Below, piece after piece: positions 5,234 to 20,893 of a DNA stretch of 24,591 bases. Each line of letters opens with the position of its first letter. Position 1 is the stretch's first letter. The notes under the pieces were generated by a model. The model did no database searches. It saw only the letters and a list, made by a program, of their open reading frames with translations, and had not been told where the DNA came from. This DNA is from Planctomycetota bacterium (GTDB lineage: Bacteria; Planctomycetota; Brocadiia; JAJRTI01): assembly GCA_024278415.1 (NCBI GenBank), contig JAJRTI010000607.1, positions 1-24,591 of the forward strand, in the 5' to 3' direction. The position numbers and the translations under genes are program-made.

Positions 5234-5239
5234 TATCAT
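5212..5239 (+). promoter_or_regulatory. sigma70-type promoter with extended -10 for the nucleotidyltransferase/HEPN pair
   Basis: TTGAGC (5212-5217), a 16-base spacer, then TATCAT (5234-5239) preceded by TG-A, making an extended -10. The expected transcription start is near 5246, about 40 bases before the ATG at 5287. Confidence 0.55.
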
Positions 5240-5286
5240 GGAGTGGTCCTGGGCGCACCCGCTGCACACAGGCAGACCAAACAGCT

Positions 5287-6159: not shown

Positions 6160-8598
6160 TCATGGGCCGTCTTGCGTAGTGACGCGAAGCGCGCCGCGGA
6201 TCGCGGCCGCTTGATCTTGGAGCCCCATGCGGTCGAACCCCTCCGTCGCGGCCGCCTTGTCGAGCCAGTATTGTGCGCGGCCGCGGTTGCCCAGCCGCAG
6301 GTAGCACTGCGCGGCATTCAGCGCGTTGCGCGCAAACTCGCCCGCGTCGTCGAGTTCCCAGGGCCGGGCGAGCCCTTGCTCGTACTGCTTCGCGGCCGCC
6401 TGCCACTTGCCCTCGGCCTGGTCGCAGTTGGCCAGCAGCAGCGCGGTGGGCAGGTACGTGCGGTCCACGAGCATCATCTTGTGGCAGGTGTTGCGCGCGA
6501 GCGCGATGCGCCCGCGGCCCAGGTCGCGGATGGCCTCGCGCTTGAGGGAGTCGATGACCGCGGCCTTGTACATCGCGCCGTGCCAGGGGTGCGCCTCGAG
6601 GGCCTTGTCCTGGCGATGGTGCTCGTACTTCGCCAGGGGCAGCATGAGCGCACCTATCGCGATCCACACGGCCATCCAGCGCCGGCGCACGTTGGCGAGG
6701 CACAGGCAGCGCAGGCCCCCGGCCGCGAGCAAGTTCGCCACGCCCGCGACGCGGGTGAAGTAGTGGGAGCTGTACGTGTTGGGGATGATGAGGGTGGGGT
6801 CGGAGGCCGCGCAGATGAGATACACGACACCGCCCGCAAACAGGAGGCATCCCGCAACGCGGTCGCGCTTCAGCACGACCGCCGCGGGCAGGAGGCAGCT
6901 TCCGATCGCGGTCCACCACGTGTAGTCGCACACCGCGCGGAGGAACGCGGCCCATGGCCTCACGCCGAGGCGCGCGAACTCCCCCGACGCGGGTACGTCT
7001 GCGAGGAGCGTCAGTACGATGGAGAACTTGCCGGCGAAGCTGCCGCCGAGCAGCGTGCGCCACCACGCGTCCCACACGCCCGTGGCCTGGCCAACGGCGA
7101 ACGCGGCCAGGCCGGCCGCGGCGACCGCGCCCGCGGTGAGTCCGAGCGCCGCGAACAAGCGCCGGCCCGCGGCGCGGGTCGAGAACACGTGAGCGAAGAG
7201 CAGCACCGGCAACGCCATGAGCCCGACCTTGGTCAGGCAGCAAAGCGCGGCGAAGAGGATGAGGAGCGCCGTGTTCGGAGTCCGGCCGTTCGGAGTCCCC
7301 CTGTTCAGCAGGAAGTAGGCGAATCCGAGCAGCACCACGATCGACGTGGTTCGCAGGCACGCGCCTTCGATGTTGGGCCGCACGAGCGTCGCGTACGCCA
7401 GCACTGGCAGCAGCGCACACAGCGTCTGCCACGGCCCGCGCACGCGCGCCAGGCCGCAGGTGATGGCAAAGACGATCCAGAGCTGCACGAGCCACACGAA
7501 GAGAAAACTCGCCATGCGATCCCCCAGCAGCACGAACGCGGCCATGCCCACGTACGAGCGCAACGGCAAGTGGGTGATCGTGTACCCGCCGCCATCGAAG
7601 ATCGTGCCGTCGTAGGAATACGTGAACGGCAGCACGTGGTCGCGCAAGTTGCGCGCGAGGCTGAGCTGCTCGCGCACGTCGCCTATGTCCCAAATCGCAT
7701 AGCGTTTCCGCACGCGTGCTTGGACTTCTTCCGGTGGGAGCCCCGTGAGGTCGAGGATCGAGAGCCGGCAGGCGGGGTCCGCGGCCTGCAAGCCGACGGT
7801 CAGCCTCTCAGTTCCTGGCGGCACAGGCAGATCGATGAGTTGCGTGTTGGGGGGGTAGTTGTGCGGATGGCGTTTGATGTCGAACGGCGGAGGGAAATAG
7901 TACGCGCCGAGCAGCTTGTCCCCGCGCTTGAACGTGACGTAGCACTCGCGCGTCGCGCGGACGAGCCACCGCACACGGCCGCCGTAGGTTTCGATCTCCA
8001 AGGACTCGCCTGGCGCGAGATCAGTGCCTTCATTCCAAACGTACCAGACGCCTCTGAACGGCTTGATCGGGGCATGCTTCTCGTTTGCGCGTGCGGGCGT
8101 TGGCGCAAGCTTCGCGAGCCGATAGAGGAAGTCGGGCGTGAGGAAGTCGTCCGGCGACCCAGGGATGGTGGGATGCGCGAGGAAGACGTAGCCCACGATC
8201 GCCGGCCCCGCGGCGACCGTCAGCCACAGGCCGCGGCCAGGACGCTGGACCCTCGCGAGCCGGCCCCGCCGGGCCTGCACGAGCGCGGCCAGCGCGGCGG
8301 ACGCGATGGCCGCCGCGGCAAGATAGCTCCAAGGCGTGACCACCTGGCCGCAGAGCTTGACCGCGGTGGATAGGACGATGACACACGCGTAGTTGATGCC
8401 CACCGTCGCGAGCGTGAAGGGGCCGAGCCGCGTCTCCCGAAGCATGAGCGCGGCGATGTAGACCCCCGGCACGAGATGCAGAATCGCCAGCCCGGCCACG
8501 ACGCGCAGCGCGTCCGCGGAGCCGCCCATCGCCAACGCGGCCGCGTAGCCGGCAAGGAGCGCGAAGACAAGCGCGTGCAGGTATCGCGTACGGTTCAC
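6160..8598 (-). CDS. large multi-pass membrane protein with C-terminal TPR-like region
   Basis: About 812 residues from GTG 8598. The frame extends to TTG 8667, but those 23 extra residues lack a hydrophobic start, whereas NRTRYLHALVFALLAGYAA fits a first membrane helix. About five transmembrane helices come first, then an extramembrane beta-rich stretch of roughly 180 residues (from TPDFLYRLAKLAP to DPACRLSILDLTG). About seven or eight more helices follow, and then a soluble C-terminus of about 160 residues that looks TPR-like (ALLLANCDQAEGKWQAAAKQ, NALNAAQCYLRLGNRGRAQ). The architecture recalls GT-C-type lipid-linked glycosyltransferases found in many environmental bacteria, but I see no diagnostic catalytic motif and assign no function. 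A tandem 'TPNGRTPN' sits between two helices, encoded by a short direct repeat near 7272-7300. It converges with the HEPN gene and lies downstream of the MCE operon on the same strand. Confidence 0.75.
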   Translation of the reverse strand: MNRTRYLHALVFALLAGYAAALAMGGSADALRVVAGLAILHLVPGVYIAALMLRETRLGPFTLATVGINYACVIVLSTAVKLCGQVVTPWSYLAAAAIASAALAALVQARRGRLARVQRPGRGLWLTVAAGPAIVGYVFLAHPTIPGSPDDFLTPDFLYRLAKLAPTPARANEKHAPIKPFRGVWYVWNEGTDLAPGESLEIETYGGRVRWLVRATRECYVTFKRGDKLLGAYYFPPPFDIKRHPHNYPPNTQLIDLPVPPGTERLTVGLQAADPACRLSILDLTGLPPEEVQARVRKRYAIWDIGDVREQLSLARNLRDHVLPFTYSYDGTIFDGGGYTITHLPLRSYVGMAAFVLLGDRMASFLFVWLVQLWIVFAITCGLARVRGPWQTLCALLPVLAYATLVRPNIEGACLRTTSIVVLLGFAYFLLNRGTPNGRTPNTALLILFAALCCLTKVGLMALPVLLFAHVFSTRAAGRRLFAALGLTAGAVAAAGLAAFAVGQATGVWDAWWRTLLGGSFAGKFSIVLTLLADVPASGEFARLGVRPWAAFLRAVCDYTWWTAIGSCLLPAAVVLKRDRVAGCLLFAGGVVYLICAASDPTLIIPNTYSSHYFTRVAGVANLLAAGGLRCLCLANVRRRWMAVWIAIGALMLPLAKYEHHRQDKALEAHPWHGAMYKAAVIDSLKREAIRDLGRGRIALARNTCHKMMLVDRTYLPTALLLANCDQAEGKWQAAAKQYEQGLARPWELDDAGEFARNALNAAQCYLRLGNRGRAQYWLDKAAATEGFDRMGLQDQAAAIRGALRVTTQDGP

Positions 8599-8608
8599 GT
8601 GGCCCAGT

Positions 8609-8632
8609 GTAGCCGAATCCGCCAGGATTCGG
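8609..8632 (+). repeat. GTAG-headed hairpin, copy A (GCCA loop)
   Basis: GTAG (8609-8612), stem CCGAATCC (8613-8620), loop GCCA, stem GGATTCGG (8625-8632), followed by GAGGGAG. The stem is perfectly paired. It has the same layout as the hairpins at 11229, 11297 and 19239, with compensated stem changes. It lies directly upstream of the membrane-protein start at 8598. Confidence 0.7.
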
Positions 8633-8698
8633 GAGGGAGAAGCTTCGCGGGGGAAGGCAGCTTCCAACGAATTCAGAAAGACAACGAATCCGGAGGCG

Positions 8699-8730
8699 AG
8701 GCGGAATGGACTCGGCTGTGCCGTCCGCCT
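8699..8730 (-). other. weak stem-loop downstream of the lipoprotein gene
   Basis: AGGCGGA (8699-8705) pairs with TCCGCCT (8724-8730). On the minus strand it follows the end of the MCE operon at 8767 and leads into moderately T-rich sequence. It is a possible transcription end signal, not a strong intrinsic terminator. Confidence 0.25.
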
Positions 8731-8766
8731 GCAGACCCCATGAGCCCGCGCGCCGCCCCCGAAAGC

Positions 8767-9333
8767 CTACCTGCCCGCCAGCGCGTTCGCCATGTCCTCC
8801 AGCGCTTCGTCGATGATGCTTTCCAGGGCCTTTGCGGCCGCGTTGGCGTAGGCCGTGGGCTTCTTGTCGGCAAGCGGTTCCTCGCGCTCGTAGAGCTTTG
8901 TCAAGAGGGCCTTGCCGGTGGCGTCGTCGATGAGCTTCAGTTCGATGGCCACGCGCGCGGTCTCCGCACCGGAGGACTCGAATGTAGCGACCGCGCCATA
9001 GAGCCGCGCGTGCTTGCCCGCTTGGGCCGGCTTGAACCGGCGTTGCACCGCCATGTGGAACTCTCGGGCGATGCACTTTTCGGGGGGCTGGACCCATCGG
9101 TTGTAATCGTCTTGTTCCAGTTCGCGGCCCCCGCGTCGCACGAGCATGCGCGTGCCGGCCGGCGCCATCATGCGGAACGGCTCGACGGTGACGGTGGCTG
9201 GGGTCGGCGAGGCTGGGGCGCCTGGCGTGGAATACCGCGTCTGCAAATCATAGAGCCGCACCCCCTGGTATTCGTGTTGGCCGACACAACCGGCCAACAC
9301 CATGAGGACGAGGCAGCGGGCGAACGTTTTCAT
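8767..9333 (-). CDS. ABC-type transport auxiliary lipoprotein (PqiC-like)
   Basis: This is a 188-residue lipoprotein. MKTFARCLVLMVLAGC carries a lipobox (LAGC) with Cys16 as the lipidated residue. The mature part has the alpha/beta pattern of the PqiC/LAM auxiliary lipoproteins (PF03886-like): YDLQTRY, a short proline-rich stretch, VTVEPFRMMAPAGTRMLVRRGG, WVQPPEKCIAREF, then VAIELKLIDDATGKALLTKLY. In this family the protein sits at the outer membrane and works with an MCE protein to move lipids across the periplasm. Its ATG overlaps the stop of the mlaD-like gene as ATGA at 9330-9333, so the two are translationally coupled. It is the last gene of the operon. Exact subfamily is moderate confidence; lipoprotein status is clear. 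Confidence 0.8.
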   Translation of the reverse strand: MKTFARCLVLMVLAGCVGQHEYQGVRLYDLQTRYSTPGAPASPTPATVTVEPFRMMAPAGTRMLVRRGGRELEQDDYNRWVQPPEKCIAREFHMAVQRRFKPAQAGKHARLYGAVATFESSGAETARVAIELKLIDDATGKALLTKLYEREEPLADKKPTAYANAAAKALESIIDEALEDMANALAGR

Positions 9334-10400
9334 TCTTCGCTCCAGATTTGGGATCGTGGCTTGCGCTTGCCGCGCACGAGCGCGCTGGGGTCTTCTTCGA
9401 GCGACTTGGCAAGCCCGTTGATGGAGTTGATCGTTTGGTCCAACTTATCGATGACCGGCTGGAGGTCGGCGCGCATGCGGCCGAAGCCCTTGAGCGCCGC
9501 CTCAGCCGCTCGGAGGCCGTCGCGAGCCGCGGCCAACGTCTCGCCGAGCTTGGCCTGCTTGAGCGTGGCCCGGGTGTCCTTCACGAGGCCCTCGACCTCC
9601 GCGAGAGCGGAGTTGAACTGGTTGACGCCTGTCTCCAGGCGCTGCCGCATCTGGTCCGCCTCGCGGTCCACCCGCGCGGTGACCTTGGCCATGTTCGTCA
9701 CCGCTTCGTCGAGGGACGTCAACATGCTGTCCACGCGCTTGTCCCGCACGAGCGAGTCGATGCCCGCGGCCAGGCGAGACACGTCCTTCACGAGCGTATT
9801 GGTGTCCTGGCCGATCTGGTCGAACGGCACGTTCGCGATCTTGGCCAGCGTCTCCGTCAGGTCCACCGTCACTCCCGCCAAAAGGGATGGCTGTGCGGGG
9901 ATGAAAAAACTGTTCGCCGGGCGCTTGTCCTTGTCGAGCGGATCGGCCGGCGCCGCGGCGTTGGGCTTGGCGTAGTAGTCGATCTGGATGAACTTCATGC
10001 CGGTGATGCCGGCGAACGCGAGTTGGCACCGGGCGCCGCGCTGGATCTGGTTGCTGAGGAGCCGCCAAAGCTGCTCGCGGTCGATCGCGCCGGACGTCTC
10101 GATCTCTGGGGAGATGTCCATGCGCACGACAATCTTCAGCTCTTCCTTGCCGGACGGCTGCGCGCCGGGTGCGACGCCCTGCTCGATTTTGATGGACGTG
10201 ACTTGGCCAATCGGCACGCCGCGGAACTTGACCGCCGCGCCGGCTTCGAGACCCTGCACGGACTCCGTGAAGACCGTGTGCACGTGGTACTTCTCCTCGA
10301 ACAATTGCCCGCCGGCGAAAACAAGGATGAACGCGACGAGCAGTACAGCCGCCGCGATCACGAAGATGCCGAGCTTGAACTTTTGGGACTCGGTGAGCAT
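9330..10400 (-). CDS. mlaD: MCE/MlaD family lipid-transport substrate-binding protein
   Basis: 356 residues from ATG 10400, which has AAGGA about eight bases upstream; longer in-frame extensions lack this. An N-terminal membrane anchor (GIFVIAAAVLLVAFILVFAGG) is followed by an MCE domain with VFTESVQGLEAGAAVKFRGV and PIGQVTSIKIEQG, the classic 'GL..G..V...G..VG.V' pattern. The domain carries a mid insertion GAQPSGKEELKIVVRMDI. The C-terminal half is long and helical (heptad-rich, residues about 180-340) and could form the tunnel-like coiled coil seen in longer MCE proteins. It should bind phospholipid in the periplasm and dock on the MlaE-MlaF inner-membrane complex encoded upstream. It is 58 bases from the mlaF stop, with a strong stem-loop between them. 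Confidence 0.93.
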   Translation of the reverse strand: MLTESQKFKLGIFVIAAAVLLVAFILVFAGGQLFEEKYHVHTVFTESVQGLEAGAAVKFRGVPIGQVTSIKIEQGVAPGAQPSGKEELKIVVRMDISPEIETSGAIDREQLWRLLSNQIQRGARCQLAFAGITGMKFIQIDYYAKPNAAAPADPLDKDKRPANSFFIPAQPSLLAGVTVDLTETLAKIANVPFDQIGQDTNTLVKDVSRLAAGIDSLVRDKRVDSMLTSLDEAVTNMAKVTARVDREADQMRQRLETGVNQFNSALAEVEGLVKDTRATLKQAKLGETLAAARDGLRAAEAALKGFGRMRADLQPVIDKLDQTINSINGLAKSLEEDPSALVRGKRKPRSQIWSEE

Positions 10401-10425
10401 TGGGGGATTCCTTCGTTCAACTGAC

Positions 10426-10454
10426 CCTCCCGAAGGTTGGCAGCCTTCGGGAGG
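10426..10454 (-). other. perfect intercistronic stem-loop between mlaF and mlaD
   Basis: CCTCCCGAAGG (10426-10436) and CCTTCGGGAGG (10444-10454) are exact reverse complements around a 7-base loop. It lies just after the mlaF stop codon in the direction of transcription. No T-run follows, so RNA processing, stability control or partial attenuation is more likely than full termination. Confidence 0.7.
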
Positions 10455-10458
10455 TTGC

Positions 10459-11214
10459 TTATGCCACGGTCTTCGTGCCGGCGCGGGTGAAAAACTCGCG
10501 CACCCACGCGTCTGCATGGGTCTTGGCGATCTCGGCCGGCTTGCCGCGGGCGATGATCTTCTGGTCGTGCAGCATGATGCACGTGTCTGCGATGCTGTAG
10601 ATGCTATCCAGCTCGTGTGTCACGATCACGACCGTGACGCCGAAATGGTCGCGCAGGTCGAGGATCAACTCGTCCAACTCCGCGGCCGAAATGGGGTCGA
10701 GCCCAGCCGACGGCTCGTCGAGGAAGAGCAACTCCGCGTCGAGCGCGAGCGCCCGCGCGAGCCCTGCGCGCTTCTTCATGCCGCCGCTGATCTCGTTGGG
10801 CAAAAAGTCCTCGAACCCGTCGAGCCCCACCGACGCGAGCTTGAGCCGCGCGATGGACTCGATGATATCGTCGGGCAAATCGGTGTGCTCTTGGAGCGGG
10901 AGGGTCACGTTCGCCAGCAGCGTCATAGAGCCAAAGAGCGCGCCGGACTGATAGAGCACGCCGAACGTCTGGTAGATCTCCTGCCACTCGTTTTCGTCGG
11001 CCTGCACGATGCTGCGGCCGTTGATCGTGATGTCGCCGGCCAGCGGCTTGTAGAGCCCAATCATGTTCTTGAGCAGTGAACTCTTGCCGCAGCCGCTGCC
11101 GCCGAGGATGACGAAGACCGTGCCCCGCGGAACCTCGAAGTTCTGCTGGTCCAGCAGCACGGTCGAGCCGTAGCCAATGGTCAGGTCGGTGGCTGTGATG
11201 ATGGGGTCGGTCAT
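10459..11214 (-). CDS. mlaF: MlaF-family ABC transporter ATPase
   Basis: 251 residues from ATG 11214 (MTDPIITATDLTIGYG). Walker A is GGSGCGKS at residues 38-45, the signature is ISGGMKKRAGLARAL, Walker B is LLFLDEPSAGLDP, and the switch histidine is in IVTHEL. The GGMKKR variant of the signature is characteristic of MlaF/Ttg2A-type ATPases, which energise lipid movement through MlaE. The protein acts at the cytoplasmic face of the inner membrane. It lies 125 bases after the mlaE-like stop, with repeat hairpins in the gap, and upstream of mlaD. The reading frame extends far upstream, but homology begins at this ATG. No strong Shine-Dalgarno is visible. Confidence 0.95.
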   Translation of the reverse strand: MTDPIITATDLTIGYGSTVLLDQQNFEVPRGTVFVILGGSGCGKSSLLKNMIGLYKPLAGDITINGRSIVQADENEWQEIYQTFGVLYQSGALFGSMTLLANVTLPLQEHTDLPDDIIESIARLKLASVGLDGFEDFLPNEISGGMKKRAGLARALALDAELLFLDEPSAGLDPISAAELDELILDLRDHFGVTVVIVTHELDSIYSIADTCIMLHDQKIIARGKPAEIAKTHADAWVREFFTRAGTKTVA

Positions 11215-11228
11215 AACGGAGTAGGGCG

Positions 11229-11252
11229 GTAGCTGCACGCGCCAGCGTGCGG
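11229..11252 (+). repeat. GTAG-headed hairpin, copy B (GCCA loop)
   Basis: GTAG (11229-11232), stem CTGCACGC, loop GCCA (11241-11244), stem GCGTGCGG, followed by GAAGGAGT. One pair is G-T; the others are Watson-Crick. It differs from copy C by a compensated T-A to C-G pair. Confidence 0.75.
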
Positions 11253-11261
11253 GAAGGAGTC

Positions 11262-11294
11262 GGATCGGACCGATCAGACAGACCGGTCCGATCC
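11262..11294. repeat. GGATCGG inverted repeat between hairpins B and C
   Basis: GGATCGGACCG (11262-11272) and CGGTCCGATCC (11284-11294) are perfect reverse complements around an 11-base loop. It contains GATCGG units like the tandem array at 19263-19316. Confidence 0.7.
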
Positions 11295-11296
11295 CA

Positions 11297-11320
11297 GTAG
11301 CCGCATGCGCCAGCATGCGG
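11297..11320 (+). repeat. GTAG-headed hairpin, copy C (GCCA loop)
   Basis: GTAG (11297-11300), stem CCGCATGC, loop GCCA (11309-11312), stem GCATGCGG, followed by GAAGGAGT as in copy B. Copies B and C are 68 bases apart in the same orientation. Confidence 0.75.
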
Positions 11321-11339
11321 GAAGGAGTGGCGAAACTCG

Positions 11340-12470
11340 TTACGGGAGGATCTGGAAAATGATCGTGAGGACCGAGTCGGCCACCACGACGAGGAAGATG
11401 CCGGACACCACGGCCGAGGTGGTCGACGTGCCCACGCCTTGCGCGCCGCCGTCCGTGCGCAGGCCGCGCAGGCAGCCGACCGCGGAAATGAGCAGCGCAA
11501 AGACGACGCTCTTGATGACGCCCTGCGAGATGTGCCACACGGTGATGTATTTCGTGGTTTCCTGGTAGTAGGCCGTGAACGGCAGATCGAGTTGCACCAT
11601 GCCGACGACGAAGCCGCCGGCGATGCCGAAGAGATCGCCGAAGAGCGTGAGCATGGGCATGACGAACGTGAGCGCGAGCACTTTGGGCAGCACCAGGAAG
11701 CGCGTGGGATCGAGGCCCATGGTCACGAGTGCGTCCACCTCTTCCGACACCTTCATGGTGCCGATCTCGGCCGCGAACGCGGAGCCCGCACGGCCCGTGC
11801 AGATCATGGCCACCATGAGCGGGCCCAGCTCCATGACGATAGACAGGCCCACCAGGTCGGCCACGAAGATGTCCGCACCGAACTGGTGCATCTGCATCGC
11901 GCCCTGGAACGCCAAGATGAGGCCCATGAGGAAGCAGAGCAGCGCCACAATGGGCACCGCGTCGCTCCCGGTGCGGGCCATGTAGAGGAGTGTGTCCTGC
12001 CACCGGACGAACTGCGGGTGGCGCGCCGCCAGCCACAGCGAGTGCGCGAGTTCGCCCACGAACGCGAGGATCGCCCGGCAATCGGCCAGGAAGCCGGCCG
12101 TGCTTTCGCCAACCTGAAGGGGCAGCGGCACGTTGCGGTCGACGCTGGAATCCGCCGCGTCGGCCTGGGCCAACTTCCGCAGCAACTCGTCGAGCCCCTC
12201 GCCCGTGTTCTGCCACTCGATCGTGCGGCCCGCCTCGGCGCTTGCGCGGGCCAGCGCACGCACCAGCGCTATCCCGTTGTGGTCGTGGCCCATCATGCCG
12301 TCGAGATCGACGGCCACCGTGTCGGCACTAGCGCCTGCTAAGATCCCTTTGAACTGGTCCATCGTCGCCACGACGTTTCGCCGCTCGACACGTCCCGTCA
12401 GCCGGAGTTTGATCCGCTTGGCGTTTTGCTCCTCCACGGACAACAGGGATTGGGCGTCCTGATCGCTCAC
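11340..12470 (-). CDS. mlaE: MlaE-family ABC transporter permease with N-terminal STAS domain
   Basis: 376 residues from GTG 12470, preceded by GGAGG (12481-12485) with a 10-base spacer. Residues 1-110 are a STAS-like domain (VAVDLDGMMGHDHNGIALVRAL). In many bacteria a separate gene (mlaB) supplies this domain; here it is fused. Residues about 155-376 are the MlaE permease: LLYMARTGSDAVPIVALLCFLMGLILAFQ, GLSIVMELGPLMVAMICTGR, AGSAFAAEIGTMKVSEEVDAL and GLDPTRFLVLPKVLA, all hallmark MlaE segments. It forms the inner-membrane channel for lipid exchange with MlaD. It is the first gene of the operon and is divergent from the FHA-protein operon, with a compact shared promoter region between them. 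Confidence 0.95.
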   Translation of the reverse strand: MSDQDAQSLLSVEEQNAKRIKLRLTGRVERRNVVATMDQFKGILAGASADTVAVDLDGMMGHDHNGIALVRALARASAEAGRTIEWQNTGEGLDELLRKLAQADAADSSVDRNVPLPLQVGESTAGFLADCRAILAFVGELAHSLWLAARHPQFVRWQDTLLYMARTGSDAVPIVALLCFLMGLILAFQGAMQMHQFGADIFVADLVGLSIVMELGPLMVAMICTGRAGSAFAAEIGTMKVSEEVDALVTMGLDPTRFLVLPKVLALTFVMPMLTLFGDLFGIAGGFVVGMVQLDLPFTAYYQETTKYITVWHISQGVIKSVVFALLISAVGCLRGLRTDGGAQGVGTSTTSAVVSGIFLVVVADSVLTIIFQILP

Positions 12471-12512
12471 GCGCGAGCAGCCTCCGGCAGATGGGCATTG
12501 AGTCGATAGGAG

Positions 12513-12521
12513 AATATATCA
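12513..12521 (-). promoter_or_regulatory. extended -10 element for the MCE operon
   Basis: On the minus strand TGATATATT is read from 12521 to 12513, a TGnTATATT extended -10. No good -35 hexamer is visible upstream. It lies about 45 bases before the mlaE GTG. Confidence 0.45.
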
Positions 12522-12572
12522 GAAGCGGGCGCGGCCATGCCAGCCTGGCCGGCTCCGGGTGTGGCCGCGACC

Positions 12573-12602
12573 TTGACCCCGGGCTCCTCGGCGGATTACG
12601 AT
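12573..12602 (+). promoter_or_regulatory. candidate promoter for the FHA-UroD-YceD operon
   Basis: TTGACC (12573-12578), an 18-base spacer, then TACGAT (12597-12602). Transcription would start near 12609, about 40 bases before ATG 12650. It is divergent from the mlaE promoter. Confidence 0.45.
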
Positions 12603-12649
12603 ATAGCCGCAGCCTGTCCTCCCTGTCCACCACCGTGCCCCCCGCCATC

Positions 12650-12961
12650 ATGCCCAAAGCCGTACTGACTTACGAATCCGGCGACGAGGCCGGCCCGTCG
12701 CACGAGTTTGAGCAACCGCAGATCCGCATCGGCCGCGGTTCTGAAAACGACCTGGTCACTCCGCCTGAGACGAGCGTTGTGTCGCGCGAGCAGTGCCTCA
12801 TCTTTTTCCACGACGGGTATTACTGGATCGAGGATTTGGCCAGCCGGCACGGCACGTTCGTGAACGACGAGCCACTCACTGTGCAGCAGATGCTGGTCGA
12901 GGGCGACGCGATCCGCTTCGGCATGACGGGGCCCGTGCTGCGGTTCCATTGGGAACGTTAG
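12650..12961 (+). CDS. FHA domain protein
   Basis: 103 residues from ATG 12650, consisting almost entirely of one forkhead-associated domain. IRIGRGSENDLV supplies the GR turn (Gly28-Arg29). VVSREQCLIFFHDGYYWIEDL contains the Ser45-Arg46 pair expected to contact phosphothreonine. SRHGTFVNDEPL has the conserved Asn, and GDAIRFGMTGPVLRF ends the sandwich. In most FHA domains the segment is SRxH; here the last position is Gln48, so phosphopeptide binding may be altered. FHA proteins read Ser/Thr kinase signalling; no kinase gene is in this window. The stop is five bases before the UroD-like start, so the two are co-transcribed. In-frame codons upstream of 12650 show no homology. Confidence 0.9.
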   Translation: MPKAVLTYESGDEAGPSHEFEQPQIRIGRGSENDLVTPPETSVVSREQCLIFFHDGYYWIEDLASRHGTFVNDEPLTVQQMLVEGDAIRFGMTGPVLRFHWER

Positions 12962-12966
12962 CGGCG

Positions 12967-13989
12967 ATGCCCACCGGCAAACAACTCGTCGCAAGCGCCA
13001 TCGCGCACGAAGAGACCGAGCGCGTGCCGTTCCACATCGACGTGACGCCGCCGGTGCGACGGCAGCTTGCCGAACACTTTGGCACGGACGACCTCGCGAC
13101 GGCCGTGGGCGAGCACTTGGCCATCGTGGGCGCCGGCACGGACAAGCCGCTCTACGCCGACCCGGCCGAGCACGGCGACGCGATCCGAGACGAGTTCGGC
13201 GTGCTGTGGCGCACAACTCCCGACGACCGCGGCTACGTGCTCCAGCACGCGCTCCCGGAGCCCACGCTCGACGGGTACGCCTTCCCCGACCCGCTGCGTC
13301 CCGGCCGATTCGACGCGGTGCCGGCCGCGATCGAGGCCAACGCCGGGCGCTTCGTCCTGGGCGTGGCCGGCGACCTGTTTGAGCGCGCCCACTTCATGCG
13401 CGGGCTGGACCGGCTGCTCATGGACTTTCTCCTGGACCCGGGCTTTGCACATGAACTGCTCGACCGCATCTGCGAGTACGACCTGGCTACGCTGGAGCGC
13501 ATGGCGGAGTTCGAGATCGACGGCATCTTCGTCAGCGACGACTACGGCCTCCAGCATTCGCTCATGATGCGGCCGGACACGTGGCGCGAGTTCATCAAGC
13601 CCCGGCTCGCGCGGCTCCTCGCGGCGGCCCAACGGCGCGGCCTGCCGTCGGTGCTCCATTCGTGCGGCTGCATCGACGCGATCATTCCCGATCTAATCGA
13701 GATCGGCCTCAGCGTGCTGCACCCCATCCAGCCGGAGGCCATTGACGTGTGGCGGCTCAAGCGCGAGTTCGGCCGCGACCTGTGCTTTTTTGGCGGCATC
13801 AGCACGCAGGGCCTGCTGCGCACCGGCTCGCCCGACGACGTGCGCCGCGAAGTCGAGCGCGCCAAGACCGTGCTCGGCGCCGGCGGCGGCTACATCCTCG
13901 GCCCCGGCATCACGATCCAGAAAGACTGCCCCCTCGACAACGTGCTCGCGCTCATGGACGCCGCGCAGGCCCCGCGGCAGAACGGATGA
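12967..13989 (+). CDS. UroD/corrinoid-methyltransferase family protein
   Basis: 340 residues from ATG 12967, a complete uroporphyrinogen-decarboxylase-fold TIM barrel (PF01208). KQLVASAIAHEETERVPF is the family N-terminus. LHSCGCIDAIIPDLIEIG (His231, Cys233) with Cys321 in ITIQKDCPLDN matches the His-x-Cys...Cys zinc site of MtaA/MtbA/CmuA-type methyltransferases. True HemE enzymes do not have this site. The protein is therefore more likely to act on a methyl-corrinoid or methyl-thiol substrate than in heme synthesis. No corrinoid-binding partner is encoded nearby, so the substrate is unknown. It lies five bases after the FHA stop and 15 bases before the YceD start, in one operon. Such paralogues are numerous in Planctomycetota and Lentisphaerota. 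Confidence 0.88.
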   Translation: MPTGKQLVASAIAHEETERVPFHIDVTPPVRRQLAEHFGTDDLATAVGEHLAIVGAGTDKPLYADPAEHGDAIRDEFGVLWRTTPDDRGYVLQHALPEPTLDGYAFPDPLRPGRFDAVPAAIEANAGRFVLGVAGDLFERAHFMRGLDRLLMDFLLDPGFAHELLDRICEYDLATLERMAEFEIDGIFVSDDYGLQHSLMMRPDTWREFIKPRLARLLAAAQRRGLPSVLHSCGCIDAIIPDLIEIGLSVLHPIQPEAIDVWRLKREFGRDLCFFGGISTQGLLRTGSPDDVRREVERAKTVLGAGGGYILGPGITIQKDCPLDNVLALMDAAQAPRQNG

Positions 13990-14004
13990 ACTGAAGAGAC
14001 ACAC

Positions 14005-14544
14005 ATGAAACTCAACATCTACGCAGTCGGGGAGGACGGGCTCGACCTGTCCGATGCGATCTCGGCGCAGGAGCTTGGGCTCGACGCCATCGAATTCGAG
14101 GTCGAAGGCTCGTGCCATCTGTCCCTTCGCGTGCGCAAACTTGGCCATGGCTTCCACGTGCGCGGCCGCGCGCGGGCGACTGTTGTGCGCACGTGTGGGC
14201 GCTGCCTCGAACGCGCCCTCCAGACTGTGGAGCCCGAATTCTCGATGGTCTACGAGCCGGCCGGCGGGACTTCGCAGGGGATCGAGAGCGACGTGTCCTC
14301 TCGCGACTTGGGCGTGACGTTCTTCGAGGGCGTCGAACTGGATCTTTCGCCCGAGATCCGGCAGGCCGTGCTGCTGGCGCTGCCGCTGAAGCCGCTGTGC
14401 CGGGAGACATGCAAAGGGCTGTGCCCGACGTGCGGCGCCAACCTAAACGACGGCCCGTGCGCGTGCGCACCCCACGCGGATGCACCCGCGGCAACGACGC
14501 TGGAAGGCTTGGCCAAGAAGTGGGCCGGCCGGAGAGGCAAATGA
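14005..14544 (+). CDS. yceD: YceD/DUF177 family protein (large rRNA subunit accumulation protein)
   Basis: 179 residues. TCGRCLERALQTVEPEFSMVY is the first Cys pair and the family's core strand. LSPEIRQAVLLALPLKPLCRETCKGLCPTCGANLNDGPCAC is the typical C-terminal block with a second Cys cluster, possibly zinc-binding. In Escherichia coli and plants YceD/DUF177 affects 23S rRNA accumulation, and the gene normally sits directly before rpmF (ribosomal protein L32). Here no L32 gene follows; the next gene is a HEAT-repeat lipoprotein with its own promoter. The N-terminal segment (LDAIEFEVEGSCHLSLRVRKL) fits the family. It is the third gene of the FHA-UroD operon. Confidence 0.88.
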   Translation: MKLNIYAVGEDGLDLSDAISAQELGLDAIEFEVEGSCHLSLRVRKLGHGFHVRGRARATVVRTCGRCLERALQTVEPEFSMVYEPAGGTSQGIESDVSSRDLGVTFFEGVELDLSPEIRQAVLLALPLKPLCRETCKGLCPTCGANLNDGPCACAPHADAPAATTLEGLAKKWAGRRGK

Positions 14545-14571
14545 AGACACCCACTGGGGAATCTGCCAATC

Positions 14572-14601
14572 TTGACCGATGCTCCCGGGCTGTGATACCA
14601 T
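14572..14601 (+). promoter_or_regulatory. sigma70-type promoter for the HEAT-repeat lipoprotein
   Basis: TTGACC (14572-14577), an 18-base spacer, then TACCAT (14596-14601). Transcription would start near 14608. This would place the upstream ATG at 14579 outside the message and favours the GTG start at 14648. Confidence 0.5.
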
Positions 14602-14647
14602 GCGCGTCCGTGCTTTCGCGTCGCGTCATGAGCGTTGGGAGTATGCC

Positions 14648-16189
14648 GTGTCTGCTTGTCGTTCGTCTCACCTGATTCACACCGTTACAATGCTCGGATT
14701 GGCGCTGGCGAGCGGCTGCGTGGCGGGAGAGGGGGCGTTGGTCCCCGCGGGGCCGGACCTCCAGAAGCGGGTCCAAGCGCTGCGCGCAGAAAACGAGAAG
14801 CTCAACAAGGAAGTGGTGGACGCACATCGGCGGCTCTTTGCCGCGCTCCAGGGGGAGGCCAAGGCCGTCGAACTGGCGAACGGGCTCGCAAGCCCACACG
14901 CCGGCGTGCGCGCGGCTGCCGCGGACGAAGCCGGCGCGGCCGGGCTGAAGCAAGTGGCGCCCGCACTTCGGGAGCGTTTGAAAGACGCTTCGCCAGAGGT
15001 GCGTGTCGCCGCCGCGAACGCGCTCGGGCTCCTGGGCGACGCGGCGAGCGCGGAGGGGCTCGTGGGGCTCTTGGGCGACGCGCCGGCCGTGCGCATCGCG
15101 GCCGCGGCCGCGCTGGGGAAGCTCAAGTCCGGCATGGCCGTGGACCCGCTGTGCCAACTGGCCAAGTCCGGCGACGACGCGACCGTGCAGGCCAGCATCG
15201 ACGCACTTGGCGAGATCGGCGACCCGCGCGCGGTGCGGCCGCTGCTGGCCCAACTCAAGGCGGGAAGTGCGAAGGTCCGCGAGGCCGCGGCGCGCAGCCT
15301 GGGGCCCATCGCCGCCCAGTCGGACGACGCGGTCCGCATGGCGGCCGTGTCCGGGCTGTCGGCCGCGATCGGCGACACCGACGAACGCGTGCGGTGGTAC
15401 GTGGTGCACAGCTTGGCCCAACTCGACGCGGTGCGCGCGGAGGCGGCGCTCATCACCAGGCTCGCGGACAAGAGCCCCCGGGTGCGGGAGGAGGCCGCGA
15501 GCGCACTGGGCGCGATCGGCTCCGTGCCGGCCCGAGAGCCCCTGCTGGCGCTGCTCGGGGACAAGGATGCGCGCGTGGAGAAGCAAGCCGCCGACGCACT
15601 GATGAGCATCGCGGCGAAGCACCCGGACGCCGCGCGGGCTCTGGCCGATCAGTTTGCCAAGCGGGGCGACTACCCGCGCGCGACGCAGCTTTGGCAGAAG
15701 CTCCTGGCGGGCGCCGATGGCGGCCCGCAGGCGCGGGTCTTGAGAGTCAAGCTTGCCGACGCGTACGAGGCCCAGGGGGACTGGCCGCAAGTCGTGGTGC
15801 AGCTCGCAGCGGCCGAGAAGATCAAGAACGGCGAACCCAAGATCGTGCGGAGGTTGGCGCTGGCCCATCTGAAGTTGAAGGCGTACGCACCCGCGGCCGA
15901 TGCGATGGCGGATTACCTGCGAGCCACCAAGGCGCCATCGCAGGTGGACTGGCGGACCGCGGCCGAGATCGCAAGGGGACTGGCGGACGCCAACCAAGCT
16001 GATGCTGCGCACGCGTTCATCGCGAAGCTGCGGAAGGTCGACGCAAAACTAGGTGGGCAGACAAGGGCCGCGCTGGAGGCCATCGAAGCCGCGCTCGCAC
16101 CCAAGCCTGCCGCGAAGAAGCCCGCACCCAAGCCTGAAGCCGCGCCTGCTGAGGCCAAGACGCCCCCAATCGCGAACGGCGCCAAGTAG
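14648..16189 (+). CDS. HEAT-repeat and TPR-like lipoprotein
   Basis: 513 residues from GTG 14648, which has a GGGAG Shine-Dalgarno six bases upstream. A longer frame reaches ATG 14579, but that codon lies inside the likely promoter. The N-terminus ends in LALASGC, a lipobox, so the protein is probably membrane-anchored in the periplasm. A short coiled coil follows (LQKRVQALRAENEKLNKEVVD). Next come about seven or eight HEAT/PBS-lyase-like repeats with the recurrent pattern 'VR.AAA.ALG..GD..A...L...L'. A TPR-like region follows (GDYPRATQLWQKLLAG, VKLADAYEAQGDWPQVVVQL) and finally a Lys/Pro/Ala-rich low-complexity tail. Such alpha-solenoids are scaffolds for protein contacts; the partner is unknown. 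The next 424 bases contain only repeats and the hom promoter. Confidence 0.85.
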   Translation: MSACRSSHLIHTVTMLGLALASGCVAGEGALVPAGPDLQKRVQALRAENEKLNKEVVDAHRRLFAALQGEAKAVELANGLASPHAGVRAAAADEAGAAGLKQVAPALRERLKDASPEVRVAAANALGLLGDAASAEGLVGLLGDAPAVRIAAAAALGKLKSGMAVDPLCQLAKSGDDATVQASIDALGEIGDPRAVRPLLAQLKAGSAKVREAAARSLGPIAAQSDDAVRMAAVSGLSAAIGDTDERVRWYVVHSLAQLDAVRAEAALITRLADKSPRVREEAASALGAIGSVPAREPLLALLGDKDARVEKQAADALMSIAAKHPDAARALADQFAKRGDYPRATQLWQKLLAGADGGPQARVLRVKLADAYEAQGDWPQVVVQLAAAEKIKNGEPKIVRRLALAHLKLKAYAPAADAMADYLRATKAPSQVDWRTAAEIARGLADANQADAAHAFIAKLRKVDAKLGGQTRAALEAIEAALAPKPAAKKPAPKPEAAPAEAKTPPIANGAK

Positions 16190-16411
16190 CGCGGAGGCTG
16201 CGGCTCGACGTTGACCACCGGCGCGATGGCGTTGGCTTGGGGAAGCGCCGCCGCGAACGCGGCGACCGCTCCCGTGCCTCTCTTGACAGGGCTTTCCCCA
16301 GGAACGGCGCCTCCTGGAGAGGGCGATATGGCAGGGCTGCTCAAGGCAAGCGGGATGTGAAACGGGTACTCCTGCCGTAGGAGTTGGGGCGTCAGTAGCC
16401 GCGCGCACCCA

Positions 16412-16478
16412 GTAGTGCTCACGTCAGTGAGCCCTCTGAGGCTCACGCACCCCGGCGGCTCACTGACGTGAGCACTAC
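16412..16478. repeat. REPIN-like perfect 22-bp inverted repeat with GTAG ends
   Basis: The arm at 16412-16433 begins GTAG and is the exact reverse complement of 16457-16478, which ends CTAC. Each arm is itself a mini-hairpin (GCTCAC, 4-base loop, GTGAGC). The 23-base centre also pairs with the left arm (GTGAGCC 16427-16433 with GGCTCAC 16440-16446). Confidence 0.8.
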
Positions 16479-16516
16479 AGGCGGGGCGCATGGGGAACCT
16501 CGTGGAACCGCGTCCG

Positions 16517-16545
16517 TTGACAACCCCGCGCGCGGCGCGTATCAT
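16517..16545 (+). promoter_or_regulatory. strong sigma70-type promoter for hom
   Basis: A consensus TTGACA (16517-16522), exactly 17 bases, then TATCAT (16540-16545). Predicted start is near 16552, about 60 bases before ATG 16614. Confidence 0.75.
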
Positions 16546-16613
16546 GGTCGCCTCGTGTGGCTCGTGCCGGGGCCGCGCCGGAACCCCCCTGTTCACCACC
16601 GCCAGGACAACAC

Positions 16614-17915
16614 ATGAAAACCGTCAACATCGGCCTTATCGGACTCGGCACCATCGGGTCGGGAGTGGCCAAGCTGCTCGTGGAATGCCGCGACCGCATC
16701 GCGCAACGCGCGGGCGTGCAGCTCCATCTTAAGCTCGCAGCGGAGAGGAACCCAGAGACTGCAAAGGCGTCGTGTGTGCCGGCTGACCGGCTCGCCGACG
16801 ACGCGGCCGCGGTGCTGGACGATCCCGATATCGCCGTCGTCATCGAACTCATCGGCGGCACCCACCCGGCCAAGGAGTTCATCGAAGCCGCGCTGCGCAA
16901 CGGCAAGGCCGTGGTCACCGCGAACAAGTCGCTGCTCGCCAAGCACGGCCCGGAGTTGTTCGCCCTGGCGCAAGCGAATGACACCTGCATCAGCTTCGAG
17001 GCGAGCGTGGGCGGCGGCATTCCCATTATCCAAGCCGCGCGGGACGGCTTCGTCGCCAACGACATCGAGTACGTGCGCGGCATCGTGAACGGCACGTGCA
17101 ACTACATCTTGACCAAGATGGCAGGCGAAGGCACTCCCTACGAAGAGGCCCTGGCCGAAGCCCAAGCCCTCGGCTACGCGGAGGCCGACCCCACGCTCGA
17201 CGTGGGCGGTGGAGACTCCGCGCACAAGCTCGCGGTGCTCGCGCGCATGGTCTTTGGGCTCGACTTCGAGTTCGACGACGTGTACTGCGAAGGCATCGCC
17301 GGCGTGGACGTGGCGGACATTCGCTACGCGCAGGAGATGGGCTATGTGCTCAAACTCCTGGCCATAGCGAAGCGGCACAACGGCGAACTCGAGCTGCGCG
17401 TCCACCCCACCCTCTTGCACAAGACCCATCCGCTTGCCGCGGTGAGTGGCGTGTTCAACGCGATCTACATCAAGGGCCACGCGCTCGACGAGGCCATGCT
17501 CTACGGCCGCGGCGCGGGGCACATGCCGACCGCGAGCGCGGTCGTGGCCGACGTGGTGGACGCCGCGCTCGGCCGCGCGCAGATCACCTTCAAGAGCCAT
17601 TGGCTCGCCTGCGCGGACCGGCGCCGGCAGGCCAACATCCGGCCCATGGCCCACATCGAGTCGCGCTACTACGTGCGCCTCATCGCCAGCGACCGGCCAG
17701 GCGTGTTCGCCAAGATCGCCACGGCCTTTGGCAACCATAACATCAGCATCGCCAGTGTGGTGCAGCACGAAGCCGTCCACGAGGCCAGCGGCTGGGTGCC
17801 CGTGGTCATGACCACCCACACCGCGCAGGAAGGCAAGATGCAGCAAGCCCTGCGCGAGATCGAAGCGCTCGACTGCATCCAAGGCCAAGCCAAGCTCCTA
17901 CGCGTCGAGGAGTAG
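16614..17915 (+). CDS. hom: homoserine dehydrogenase (with C-terminal ACT domain)
   Basis: 433 residues from ATG 16614, preceded by AGGA. It reduces aspartate semialdehyde to homoserine with NAD(P)H on the threonine/methionine route. VNIGLIGLGTIGSGV is the Rossmann nucleotide loop. TANKSLLAKHG contains the conserved Lys105, and VGGGIPII and VNGTCNYIL are catalytic-domain hallmarks. In YAEADPTLDVGGGDSAHK the Glu, Asp and Lys needed for catalysis are present. YYVRLIASDRPGVFAKIATAF begins a regulatory ACT domain, which in other bacteria senses threonine. The length matches monofunctional bacterial enzymes, with no aspartokinase fused. The gene has its own promoter and is followed by the phosphoglycerate-mutase-like gene, a linkage known from threonine-pathway clusters. 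Confidence 0.97.
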   Translation: MKTVNIGLIGLGTIGSGVAKLLVECRDRIAQRAGVQLHLKLAAERNPETAKASCVPADRLADDAAAVLDDPDIAVVIELIGGTHPAKEFIEAALRNGKAVVTANKSLLAKHGPELFALAQANDTCISFEASVGGGIPIIQAARDGFVANDIEYVRGIVNGTCNYILTKMAGEGTPYEEALAEAQALGYAEADPTLDVGGGDSAHKLAVLARMVFGLDFEFDDVYCEGIAGVDVADIRYAQEMGYVLKLLAIAKRHNGELELRVHPTLLHKTHPLAAVSGVFNAIYIKGHALDEAMLYGRGAGHMPTASAVVADVVDAALGRAQITFKSHWLACADRRRQANIRPMAHIESRYYVRLIASDRPGVFAKIATAFGNHNISIASVVQHEAVHEASGWVPVVMTTHTAQEGKMQQALREIEALDCIQGQAKLLRVEE

Positions 17916-17934
17916 CGGGATAGGTTGGCGGTCG

Positions 17935-17971
17935 TCGGTTTTCGTTGTTCACCACTCCCGCCGAAAACCGA
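17935..17971 (+). other. stem-loop between hom and the mutase-like gene
   Basis: TCGGTTTTCG (17935-17944) and CGAAAACCGA (17962-17971) pair perfectly across a 17-base loop. No T-run follows on the plus strand, so it is not a canonical intrinsic terminator. It could modulate read-through from hom. Confidence 0.5.
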
Positions 17972-18021
17972 AAACCATCCACGCGTGAGCCTCTGCCTTC
18001 CCCAACCCCCCGAGCCCGACC

Positions 18022-19221
18022 ATGAAATACGTCATCCTCGTTCCCGACGGCATGGCCGACTATCCGTTTCCCGAGCACGACGGCCGCACGCCCCTTGAGA
18101 TGGCGCGCACGCCGCACATGGACCGGCTCGCGCGGGAAGGCCGCGTCGGCCTGGCGCGCACGATCCCCCGCGGCATGGCCCCCGGCAGCGACGTGGCGAA
18201 CCTGTCGCTTGTGGGCTACGACCCCAAACGATACTACAGCGGACGGGCGCCGCTCGAGGCCGCGAGCATGGGCATCGACATGGGGCCGGACGACGTCGCG
18301 TTTCGCTGCAACCTCGTGACGCTGAGCGCGGGCATCATGGGCGACTTCGCCGCGGGCCACATCCCCAACAAGGAGTCCCACCCACTCATCGCCGCGCTCA
18401 ACGACGCACTCGCAACGGACGAAATCCGCTTCCATCCTGGGGTGAGCTACCGGCACATCATGGTCTACAGCGGGCCCGAGAAACTGAAGCTCAAGACCAC
18501 GCCGCCCCACGACATCATCGGCCAGCCGTATGAGAAGCACCTGCCCAGGGGCAAAGGCAAGGACCTCATCCGCGGGCTCATGGAGCGCTCGCGGGAGATT
18601 CTCGAACCGCACGAGATCAACACCGTGCGGCTCGACCTGGGCGAGAACCCCGCGACGCAAGTCTGGCTCTGGGGCGAAGGCCACGCGCCGCAGATGGAGC
18701 CGTTCGCAGACAAATACGGGCCCACCGGAGCGATGATCACCGCGGTCGATCTGCTGCGCGGGATCGCCAAGTGCATCGGTTGGGACGTGATCGAAGTGCC
18801 CGGCGCAACGGGGTACCTCGACACCAACTACACGGGCAAGGGCGAGTACGCAGTCGAGGCGCTCAAGGACCACGACCTCGTGTACGTGCACGTGGAGGCG
18901 CCCGACGAGGCCTCGCACGGAGGGCATTTGGAGGAGAAGATGCTCGCCATCCAGCGCGTGGACACCCACGTGCTCGCGCCGCTGCTGGAGGCCGCGGAGC
19001 GCTACAACGCGGACGGCGAGGGCTGCCGTGTGCTCGTCATGCCCGACCACCTCACGCCCATCTCGAAGAAGACGCACACGGCCGAGCCGGTGCCGTTCGT
19101 GCTGTGGGGCCCCGGCTTCGAGCCCAACGGCGCCGAGTCGCTCTCCGAGGCCCAGGCCAAGGCAGCGGGCCTGAAGGTGGGCAAGGGCTTCACGATCATG
19201 GAGCAGTTGCTCGGGGCGTAA
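18022..19221 (+). CDS. archaeal-type cofactor-independent phosphoglycerate mutase-like protein (putative homoserine kinase)
   Basis: 399 residues from ATG 18022 (MKYVILVPDGMADYP). It is an alkaline-phosphatase-superfamily enzyme of the ApgM type. Metal ligands are seen in VPDGMAD, in VHVEAPDEASHGGH and in MPDHLTPISKKTHT. The nucleophile Ser56 is in PGSDVANLSLVGYDP. KYGPTGAMITAVDLLRGIAK is also typical. In several bacteria this subgroup sits with hom and threonine synthase where a standard ThrB is missing, and it has been proposed to be an alternative homoserine kinase (the TIGR02535 family name, from memory). The immediate linkage to hom here supports that reading; a glycolytic mutase role is the alternative. 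It lies 106 bases after hom, so it may share the hom transcript. Confidence 0.9.
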   Translation: MKYVILVPDGMADYPFPEHDGRTPLEMARTPHMDRLAREGRVGLARTIPRGMAPGSDVANLSLVGYDPKRYYSGRAPLEAASMGIDMGPDDVAFRCNLVTLSAGIMGDFAAGHIPNKESHPLIAALNDALATDEIRFHPGVSYRHIMVYSGPEKLKLKTTPPHDIIGQPYEKHLPRGKGKDLIRGLMERSREILEPHEINTVRLDLGENPATQVWLWGEGHAPQMEPFADKYGPTGAMITAVDLLRGIAKCIGWDVIEVPGATGYLDTNYTGKGEYAVEALKDHDLVYVHVEAPDEASHGGHLEEKMLAIQRVDTHVLAPLLEAAERYNADGEGCRVLVMPDHLTPISKKTHTAEPVPFVLWGPGFEPNGAESLSEAQAKAAGLKVGKGFTIMEQLLGA

Positions 19222-19238
19222 ACGCCGCAATCGGTCTG

Positions 19239-19262
19239 GTAGCCGCATGCGCCAGCATGCGG
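19239..19262 (+). repeat. GTAG-headed hairpin, copy D (GCCA loop)
   Basis: GTAG (19239-19242), stem CCGCATGC, loop GCCA (19251-19254), stem GCATGCGG. It is identical to copy C over all 24 bases and lies about 7.9 kb away. It is followed directly by the GATCGGTC array. Confidence 0.8.
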
Positions 19263-19316
19263 GATCGGTCTGATCGGTCTGATCGGTCTGATCGGTCGGA
19301 TCGGTCGGATCGGTCG
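19263..19316 (+). repeat. six tandem copies of a 9-base unit GATCGGTC(T/G)
   Basis: Three GATCGGTCT units (19263-19289) are followed by three GATCGGTCG units (19290-19316) and then GATT. The array directly abuts hairpin D and lies between the mutase-like gene and the sulfatase. It has no spacers, so it is not CRISPR. Confidence 0.9.
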
Positions 19317-19355
19317 GATTAGCCCCAATCTACCCTCATGCCAAGGATTACCCCC

Positions 19356-20753: not shown

Positions 20754-20756
20754 AAC

Positions 20757-20830
20757 GTAAAGCGTAAAGACGTAAAACGTAAACCAGAAGGGCTACAAAC
20801 GCCTCTCCGCCTTACGTCTTTACGTTTTAC
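20757..20830. repeat. 19-bp AT-rich stem-loop of CGTAAA units after the sulfatase
   Basis: The arm 20757-20775 pairs with 20812-20830 over 19 positions with only one G-T pair. The arms are built of repeated CGTAAA-type units. Its position three bases after the sulfatase stop suits a transcript-end structure, though no T-run follows. Confidence 0.7.
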
Positions 20831-20835
20831 TCGTT

Positions 20836-20893
20836 ACGTATTACGTATTGCGTATCCAGACTCGCGGTCCGAGATACGGAATACGGAATACGC
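20836..20893. repeat. second inverted repeat of heptamer CGTATT / GGAATAC units
   Basis: The arm 20836-20856 (three 7-base units, CGTATT-type) is reverse complementary to 20873-20893 at 18 of 21 positions. It lies tandem to the hairpin at 20757-20830 and is strikingly AT-rich for this DNA. Confidence 0.65.

Follow-up and report, generated by a model that had tools for sequence, protein, structure and literature searches.

Short GTAG-tagged hairpins on a Planctomycetota contig resemble REP elements and probably have an IS200-like transposase as partner

Four short hairpins, each headed by the tetranucleotide GTAG, are scattered over positions 1 to 24,591 of contig JAJRTI010000607.1 from a Planctomycetota bacterium (assembly GCA_024278415.1); this whole stretch of 24,591 nucleotides (nt) is referred to as the window. 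The locus raises the question of what kind of element these hairpins are, and which enzyme would have dispersed them. A first-pass annotation of the DNA had proposed that they are repetitive extragenic palindromic (REP) elements, present as non-autonomous copies and moved by a REP-associated tyrosine transposase (RAYT). The reading that we favour on balance is that they are short GTAG-tagged REPs spread by a TnpA transposase of subclass 1.2 that is encoded elsewhere.

The hairpins (e1 to e4, Table 1) were found exactly where they had been annotated, each with GTAG, an 8-base stem and a GCCA loop. When both strands of the window were searched for GTAG followed by eight paired bases (G.T allowed) around GCCA, only these four were recovered, and none occurred when the window was shuffled 300 times with dinucleotide counts preserved; with any 4-nt loop allowed, the shuffles held a mean of 0.027 and a maximum of two. 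As e3 is identical to e4, there are three distinct stems among the four copies. Three of the eight stem pairs vary on both sides, which bears out the compensatory changes reported earlier, one varies on one side and four are invariant, so that pairing is intact in 32 of 32 cells; the one-sided change, C-G to T.G in e2, is a wobble that had not been flagged. Folding as single-stranded DNA left GTAG unpaired and gave 8 base pairs (bp) and a 4-nt loop in each case (z -2.2 to -4.3). A covariance model of e1 to e4 scored its own members at 47.5-51.8 bits, a match by construction, and the next place in the window at 16.1 bits. The tail described as GGGA-like or GA-rich follows three of the four stems and is not found after e4. 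All four copies lie on the same strand, and e2 and e3 are direct (head to tail), 44 nt apart.

Table 1. Positions and make-up of the hairpins and the repeats that they touch
Feature	Coordinates	Strand	Description
e1	8609..8632	+	GTAG, CCGAATCC / GCCA / GGATTCGG, then GAGGGAGA
e2	11229..11252	+	GTAG, CTGCACGC / GCCA / GCGTGCGG (one T.G pair), then GAAGGAGT
e3	11297..11320	+	GTAG, CCGCATGC / GCCA / GCATGCGG, then GAAGGAGT
e4	19239..19262	+	same 24 nt as e3; after the stem, GATCGGTC
9-bp tandem array (GATCGGTCN)	19230..19319	+	split by e4
e2-e3 spacer	11253..11296	-	about 4 degenerate units of the GATCGGTCN repeat, 29/36 positions

The rules for short REPs in PMC6006769 ask for GTAG or GTGG 0-2 nt before the stem, a basal stem paired throughout over 7-20 nt, a loop of 2-5 nt, at least three G or C among the first four stem bases, a place between genes, many copies per genome and one copy less than 1 kb from a cognate tnpA gene. 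All four hairpins carry GTAG directly at the stem foot, a paired stem of 8 bp (one T.G pair in e2) and a loop of 4 nt, and the first four stem bases (CCGA, CTGC, CCGC and CCGC in e1 to e4) include at least three G or C. Elements e2 to e4 lie between likely genes. Element e1 falls between genes only on the premise that the adjacent minus-strand gene (open reading frame 6160-8667, no Pfam match) starts at a possible in-frame GTG (8598), which puts e1 10 nt upstream; the longest reading frame, from TTG 8667, would contain e1. The density is four copies in 24.6 kb. In the portion of Di Nocera 2013 (PMC3733652) used here, a GTAG-tagged REP super-family of 24 families is reported in Planctomycetes and Verrucomicrobia, with unpaired GTAG at one end, a short loop (in many TY or CMA) and stems mostly of 6-9 bp with alternative complementary bases, as in the window; those families are discussed with RAYTs, and the likeness was judged by description, not family by family. 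The window elements are probably a kind already reported from bacteria of the Planctomycetes-Verrucomicrobia-Chlamydiae (PVC) group, and what is new is the probable kind of partner enzyme. Structure, placement and the comparison with hairpins flanking Y1 transposase genes in PVC genomes (below) sustain two parts of the first-pass annotation, a REP-type element with a GTAG guide and non-autonomous copies. That the hairpins are REPs, forming a family of short GTAG-tagged elements that is dense locally, is well supported and very likely.

The surroundings of e4 are suggestive of how such a copy arrives. The insert in the 9-bp array measures 25 nt (19239-19263), the unit ATCGGTCTG stands directly before the GTAG of e4 and again directly after GTAG...GCGGG, and if exactly these 25 nt are removed the array is perfect and in phase, with the caveat that the left side holds a single unit and that an in-phase position is expected by chance one time in nine. 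Such a footprint would be expected from precise insertion without target duplication. Transposition of IS200/IS605 elements gives no target duplication. Apart from the e4 array and the e2-e3 spacer, no place in the window matches at least 27 of 36 positions of the 9-bp repeat; e4 splits the first and e2 and e3 border the second, so that three of the four hairpins touch arrays. This contact need not be causal, since hairpins and arrays both favour spacers. Among 197 genomes, the class of a Victivallaceae metagenome-assembled genome, the minisatellite pattern GATCGGTCN was found in 14 (loci L215-L229) and never with a reversed control; two genomes, G048 and G050, held 168 and 191 partly overlapping places. 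Nothing convincing in the way of hairpins near arrays was seen among 15 array loci in other genomes.

We infer mobility, a partner enzyme and a single-strand mechanism of the following kind. At replication forks, single-stranded DNA, probably the lagging-strand template, would fold into the 8-bp stem with its GCCA loop, and a Y1 HUH transposase whose gene lies in another part of the genome would read the GTAG foot and the loop. By analogy with TnpA-REP work, the enzyme would cut one strand at a nearby dinucleotide and re-join the released strand elsewhere, and an element of 25-34 nt could thereby spread into spacers between genes without target duplication. The likeliest enzyme would be an IS200-like TnpA with the motif Y...Q..HH (subclass 1.2), not a canonical RAYT. 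In the sections of PMC8266576 drawn on, GTAG is the guide and the cut falls at a nearby dinucleotide that is CT in most studied systems; a CT is present after e4 in GATCGGTCT. The subterminal hairpins of IS200/IS605 elements likewise have a tetranucleotide 5' of the hairpin foot, as set out in part of PMC6006769, whereas the window hairpins are single and dispersed, with no transposase gene between them.

The enzyme was sought through look-alike hairpins in other genomes. A degenerate pattern of e1 to e4 matched 32 places in the class of 197 genomes; nine of these matches are fully paired 8-bp hairpins (four with a GCCA and five with a GCAA loop), and one full hairpin directly adjoins a Y1 transposase gene (G083, contig 40). 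Y1_Tnp was therefore searched in 22 genomes, of which 20 were positive, and 90 of the loci listed (30 and 60) were examined. Full hairpins were found in six genomes (G028, G036, G069, G080, G081 and G083), each of which has at least one Y...Q..HH gene. The covariance model gave weak matches in the 197 genomes, 82 of which had one at E <= 0.5, with 6e-6 as the lowest E. The best match, L123, has a GCCA loop but lacks GTAG; the next, L124 (1501-1532 of contig 73 in G071), has the foot GTGG, the stem CCGAAGTC/GGCTTCGG and a GCCA loop. Its form is close to that of e1, and it may be a relative. Genome G071 also has Y...Q..HH genes.

Two kinds of transposase could be set against two kinds of hairpin. 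Table 1 of PMC6006769 gives Y...Q..HH as subclass 1.2, of about 150 amino acids, with 'no' under REP and a distribution in Cyanobacteria and Bacteroidetes, and Y..NP as class 2, the RAYTs; the genes discussed here were assigned to either kind by catalytic motif, not by tree. The Y...Q..HH genes beside look-alike hairpins encode about 150 amino acids with the motifs HuH, WQ and Y...Q..HH. Of four genes submitted to NCBIfam, the three with this motif were assigned to the IS200/IS605 transposases (NF033573) and the one with Y..NP to the REP-associated family (NF047646), and the ISHp608 transposase was the nearest solved structure for both Y...Q..HH TnpA proteins tested. A search for subclass 1.2 in Planctomycetota was positive in 68 of 246 genomes, and 30 further loci from this search, 27 with a usable gene, brought the total to 52 genes. 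Hairpins sharing an 8-bp arm, with at most one mismatch, were present on both flanks at 27 of the 52, and in shuffled flanks in none of 20 rounds; the corresponding figure for Y..NP genes was 11 of 32. The PVC genes of this motif type thus have REP-like hairpins on both flanks, in contrast to the 'no' under REP in the table cited.

Read on the strand that gives AG, the foot of the flanking hairpin ends in AG at 26 of the 27 genes. The foot types in 43 readings were ATAG (13), GTAG (10), CCAG (6), ACAG (5), TTAG (4) and others (5), and 39 of the 43 stems start with CC. Hairpins with a GCCA loop are seen next to the subclass 1.2 genes of L192 (G083, foot GTAG) and L305 (G371, foot TTAG). Among GTAG hairpins within 350 nt of a gene, stems starting CC or CT make up 14/16 at subclass 1.2 genes vs 0/19 at Y..NP genes (Fisher's test, 5e-8) and loops that do not begin with T 14/16 vs 3/19 (3e-5), with the caveats that one gene can contribute several non-independent hairpins and that Planctomycetota loci are among the 16 but not among the 19; when only the same 22 genomes were considered, the CC/CT start was found in 8/8 vs 0/19. 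The window stems start CC, CT, CC and CC, and their GCCA loops are not T-initial, as in the subclass 1.2 type. From stem start and loop, an enzyme of subclass 1.2 appears fairly likely for the window hairpins.

These observations bear directly on the alternative that e1 to e4 are canonical REPs mobilised by a class 2 RAYT (Y..NP). A GTAG foot over a perfect 8-bp stem with a short loop is also the form of the Stenotrophomonas maltophilia (group 3) REP, as given in part of PMC8266576; the GTAG foot is the usual one beside Y..NP genes (11/15 hairpins, vs 13/48 for subclass 1.2), and the genomes of relatives contain Y..NP genes. The stems and loops point the other way: in addition to the lack of CC/CT starts, 16 of the 19 GTAG hairpins beside Y..NP genes in PVC genomes have T-initial loops, and this stem and loop type is not matched by e1 to e4. 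A naive-Bayes classifier that includes the foot, a feature favouring RAYT, places e1 to e4 with subclass 1.2 by 2.0, 3.5, 4.4 and 4.4 bits, a modest margin from features chosen post hoc and a small Y..NP set (15 hairpins, 9 genes), which tempers our reading; with one gene left out at a time, and the foot included, it was correct for 45/48 hairpins of subclass 1.2 and 15/15 of Y..NP. By stem start and loop, a RAYT in the strict sense fits less well than subclass 1.2, and a class 2 enzyme is unlikely, though the most serious competitor to subclass 1.2.

Genomes with subclass 1.2 genes also hold gene-free copies. Among genomes chosen for the comparison, dispersed copies of one stem type were found in 19 of the 20 that have subclass 1.2 matches, at up to 40 places (G345), and in none of the 10 that lack them; G201 alone matched the reversed control. 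Many of these places are inverted pairs. In 16 hand-picked pairs from five genomes the hairpins start 110-145 nt apart and enclose an inner inverted repeat, seen by eye, and the two most similar copies within one genome reach 94% similarity; these pairs are REPIN-like elements (REPIN, an inverted REP pair) without a gene. Gene-free elements of this kind in Planctomycetota (L356-L371) measure about 150-180 nt, with inverted TAG- or CAG-tagged end hairpins and a second inverted repeat inside, by eye.

Many of the hairpins beside subclass 1.2 genes match a family that has been catalogued as RNA. The part of Weinberg 2010 consulted lists Acido-Lenti-1 (RF01687) as a probable RNA, and a 2026 paper, in the passage used here, states that little is known of its function. 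The RF01687 model matches the complement strand of subclass 1.2 hairpins along with a linker and a further, small hairpin. At 18 subclass 1.2 loci, picked for having hairpins, it matched 14 at E <= 1, and eight reached the gathering score. Hairpins that match RF01687 flank the Y...Q..HH TnpA genes at L192, L195, L305, L307, L316 and other loci. The 246 Planctomycetota genomes searched for RF01687 were drawn by the same request as the set searched for subclass 1.2 and agree with it in the genomes listed; 63 of them had RF01687 at E <= 0.001 and 48 were above the cut-off. The RNA and the gene occur together: 54 of the 63 RNA genomes are among the 68 with the gene, with 14 having the gene only and nine the RNA only (Fisher's test, 1e-31, uncorrected for species relatedness), and when only gene matches below 1e-20 are counted, RF01687 is present in 50 of 53 genomes. 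In picked examples the two lie 18-65 nt apart in 8 of the 12 pairs listed and 122-569 nt apart in the other four.

In the window, the complement strand of three of the four hairpins reads like Acido-Lenti-1, with an 8-bp stem starting CC, a 4-nt loop, and GG then CTA; e2 differs in having CAG instead of CGG before CTA. Acido-Lenti-1 has a small second hairpin after a linker, and none was seen in e1 to e4, which resemble the first half only. A full-text search, which did not extend to figures, supplements and most subscription papers, recognised no published tie of Acido-Lenti-1 or subclass 1.2 to REPs. The wider proposition, that Y...Q..HH TnpA proteins, until now orphan enzymes for which no DNA partner is known, are REP-forming in PVC bacteria, that their TAG-tagged hairpins are Acido-Lenti-1, and that the window shows a one-hairpin branch expanded in an uncultured PVC lineage, is to us evenly balanced. 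If it is true, a transposase group described without REPs would gain a DNA substrate, the orphan Acido-Lenti-1 'RNA' would receive an explanation in DNA, as mobile hairpins and not a regulatory RNA, and the origin of GTAG-type REPs would be tied to two separate branches of the Y1 enzymes.

Structured RNA was also considered for e1 to e4 themselves, that is, mRNA hairpins or a regulatory family in operon spacers whose pairing is kept by RNA function. The stem changes keep pairing and include one T.G pair, e2 and e3 are in what is probably an mla operon, and e4 comes after the end of a gene. However, there is no Rfam match, the neighbouring genes have no common function, no T tract suggests a terminator, and e4 interrupts a tandem array. 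Furthermore, gene direction implies transcripts with the complement of e1 to e3 (CTAC after the hairpin) but with e4 as written (GTAG before the hairpin), so the strand is not fixed by gene context. An RNA function is therefore improbable. The identity of e3 and e4, and the closeness of e2 and e3 with their common 8-nt tail, might suggest palindromes formed by chance or a tandem or segmental duplication of purely local extent, but the upstream flanks differ at every copy, the three distinct stems all pair and the window's only four such hairpins are without counterpart in the shuffles, which refutes chance palindromes and makes this explanation exceedingly improbable.

Several results count against short REPs spread by a subclass 1.2 enzyme. 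The first-pass annotation had noted no RAYT in the window, and this was upheld: two Y1 profiles, built from 25 Y...Q..HH and 24 Y..NP transposases, gave no match in six frames at E <= 10. No exact copy of e1 to e4 was found in genome contigs, and no relative with their stem sequences among the genomes searched. The 32 degenerate matches, in 26 of the 197 genomes, were fewer than the 46 obtained with the reversed control (the sum over its rows), so the number of matches is uninformative. All copies have one orientation and e1 to e4 form no inverted REP pair, unlike the hairpins of subclass 1.2, which often flank genes as inverted pairs. At 25 of the 52 subclass 1.2 genes, paired flank hairpins were not seen. 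RF01687 had no match at the gathering score in the whole window, nor at E <= 10 around the copies, which follows from the second hairpin being missing from e1 to e4. A milder point, with respect to the CT rule, is that the first 12 bases after the stems of e2 and e3 contain no CT. Other searches for copies gave little: a pattern with two mismatches in 14 genomes matched about as often as its reversed control, a looser pattern matched 2/392 and 0/75 in two Planctomycetota sets, and viral contigs held no exact or near-exact copies.

The genes around the hairpins were also compared with those of relatives. Elements e2 and e3 lie between the gene for an MlaE with a STAS domain and an ABC ATPase (mlaF-like) gene, and e4 between apgM (cofactor-independent phosphoglycerate mutase) and a sulfatase gene. 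The best relative of the window MlaE is 68% identical, its best named relatives being Lentisphaerae, then Candidatus Binatia and others; for apgM the best relative is 79% identical and the best named is Brocadia, followed by Planctomycetes, Phycisphaerae and Omnitrophota. The contig is metagenomic and was taken to come from an uncultured PVC-like bacterium, with MlaE pointing to Lentisphaeria and the phosphoglycerate mutase to Brocadia and Planctomycetes. Measured from the mlaE stop, the homologous ATG of the ATPase gene, matched by the starts MTDP (window), MTEP and MSEP (L040 and L041), lies at 125 nt in the window vs -1 in both L040 and L041. Of 25 loci tried for this gap, seven had no ATPase gene and two others a gap of more than 150 nt. 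The shorter gap in L040 and L041 could be an empty site for e2 and e3, which is only suggestive.

Three further features of the window were noted. On the minus strand at 10425-10450, within the mla operon's next spacer, there is a hairpin CCGAAGG-CTGCCAA-CCTTCGG followed by GAGGG; it has GCCA inside its loop and an e1-like tail, is without GTAG, and scores 14.1 bits with the covariance model of e1 to e4. At 5167-6028 a nucleotidyltransferase (MNT) gene overlaps a HEPN gene, an arrangement that we take to be the layout of HEPN-MNT toxin-antitoxin pairs. The AT-rich spacer after the sulfatase gene (20755-20892) contains the 7-bp repeats CGTAAAG, TTACGTA and ATACGGA, arranged by eye partly as inverted repeats.

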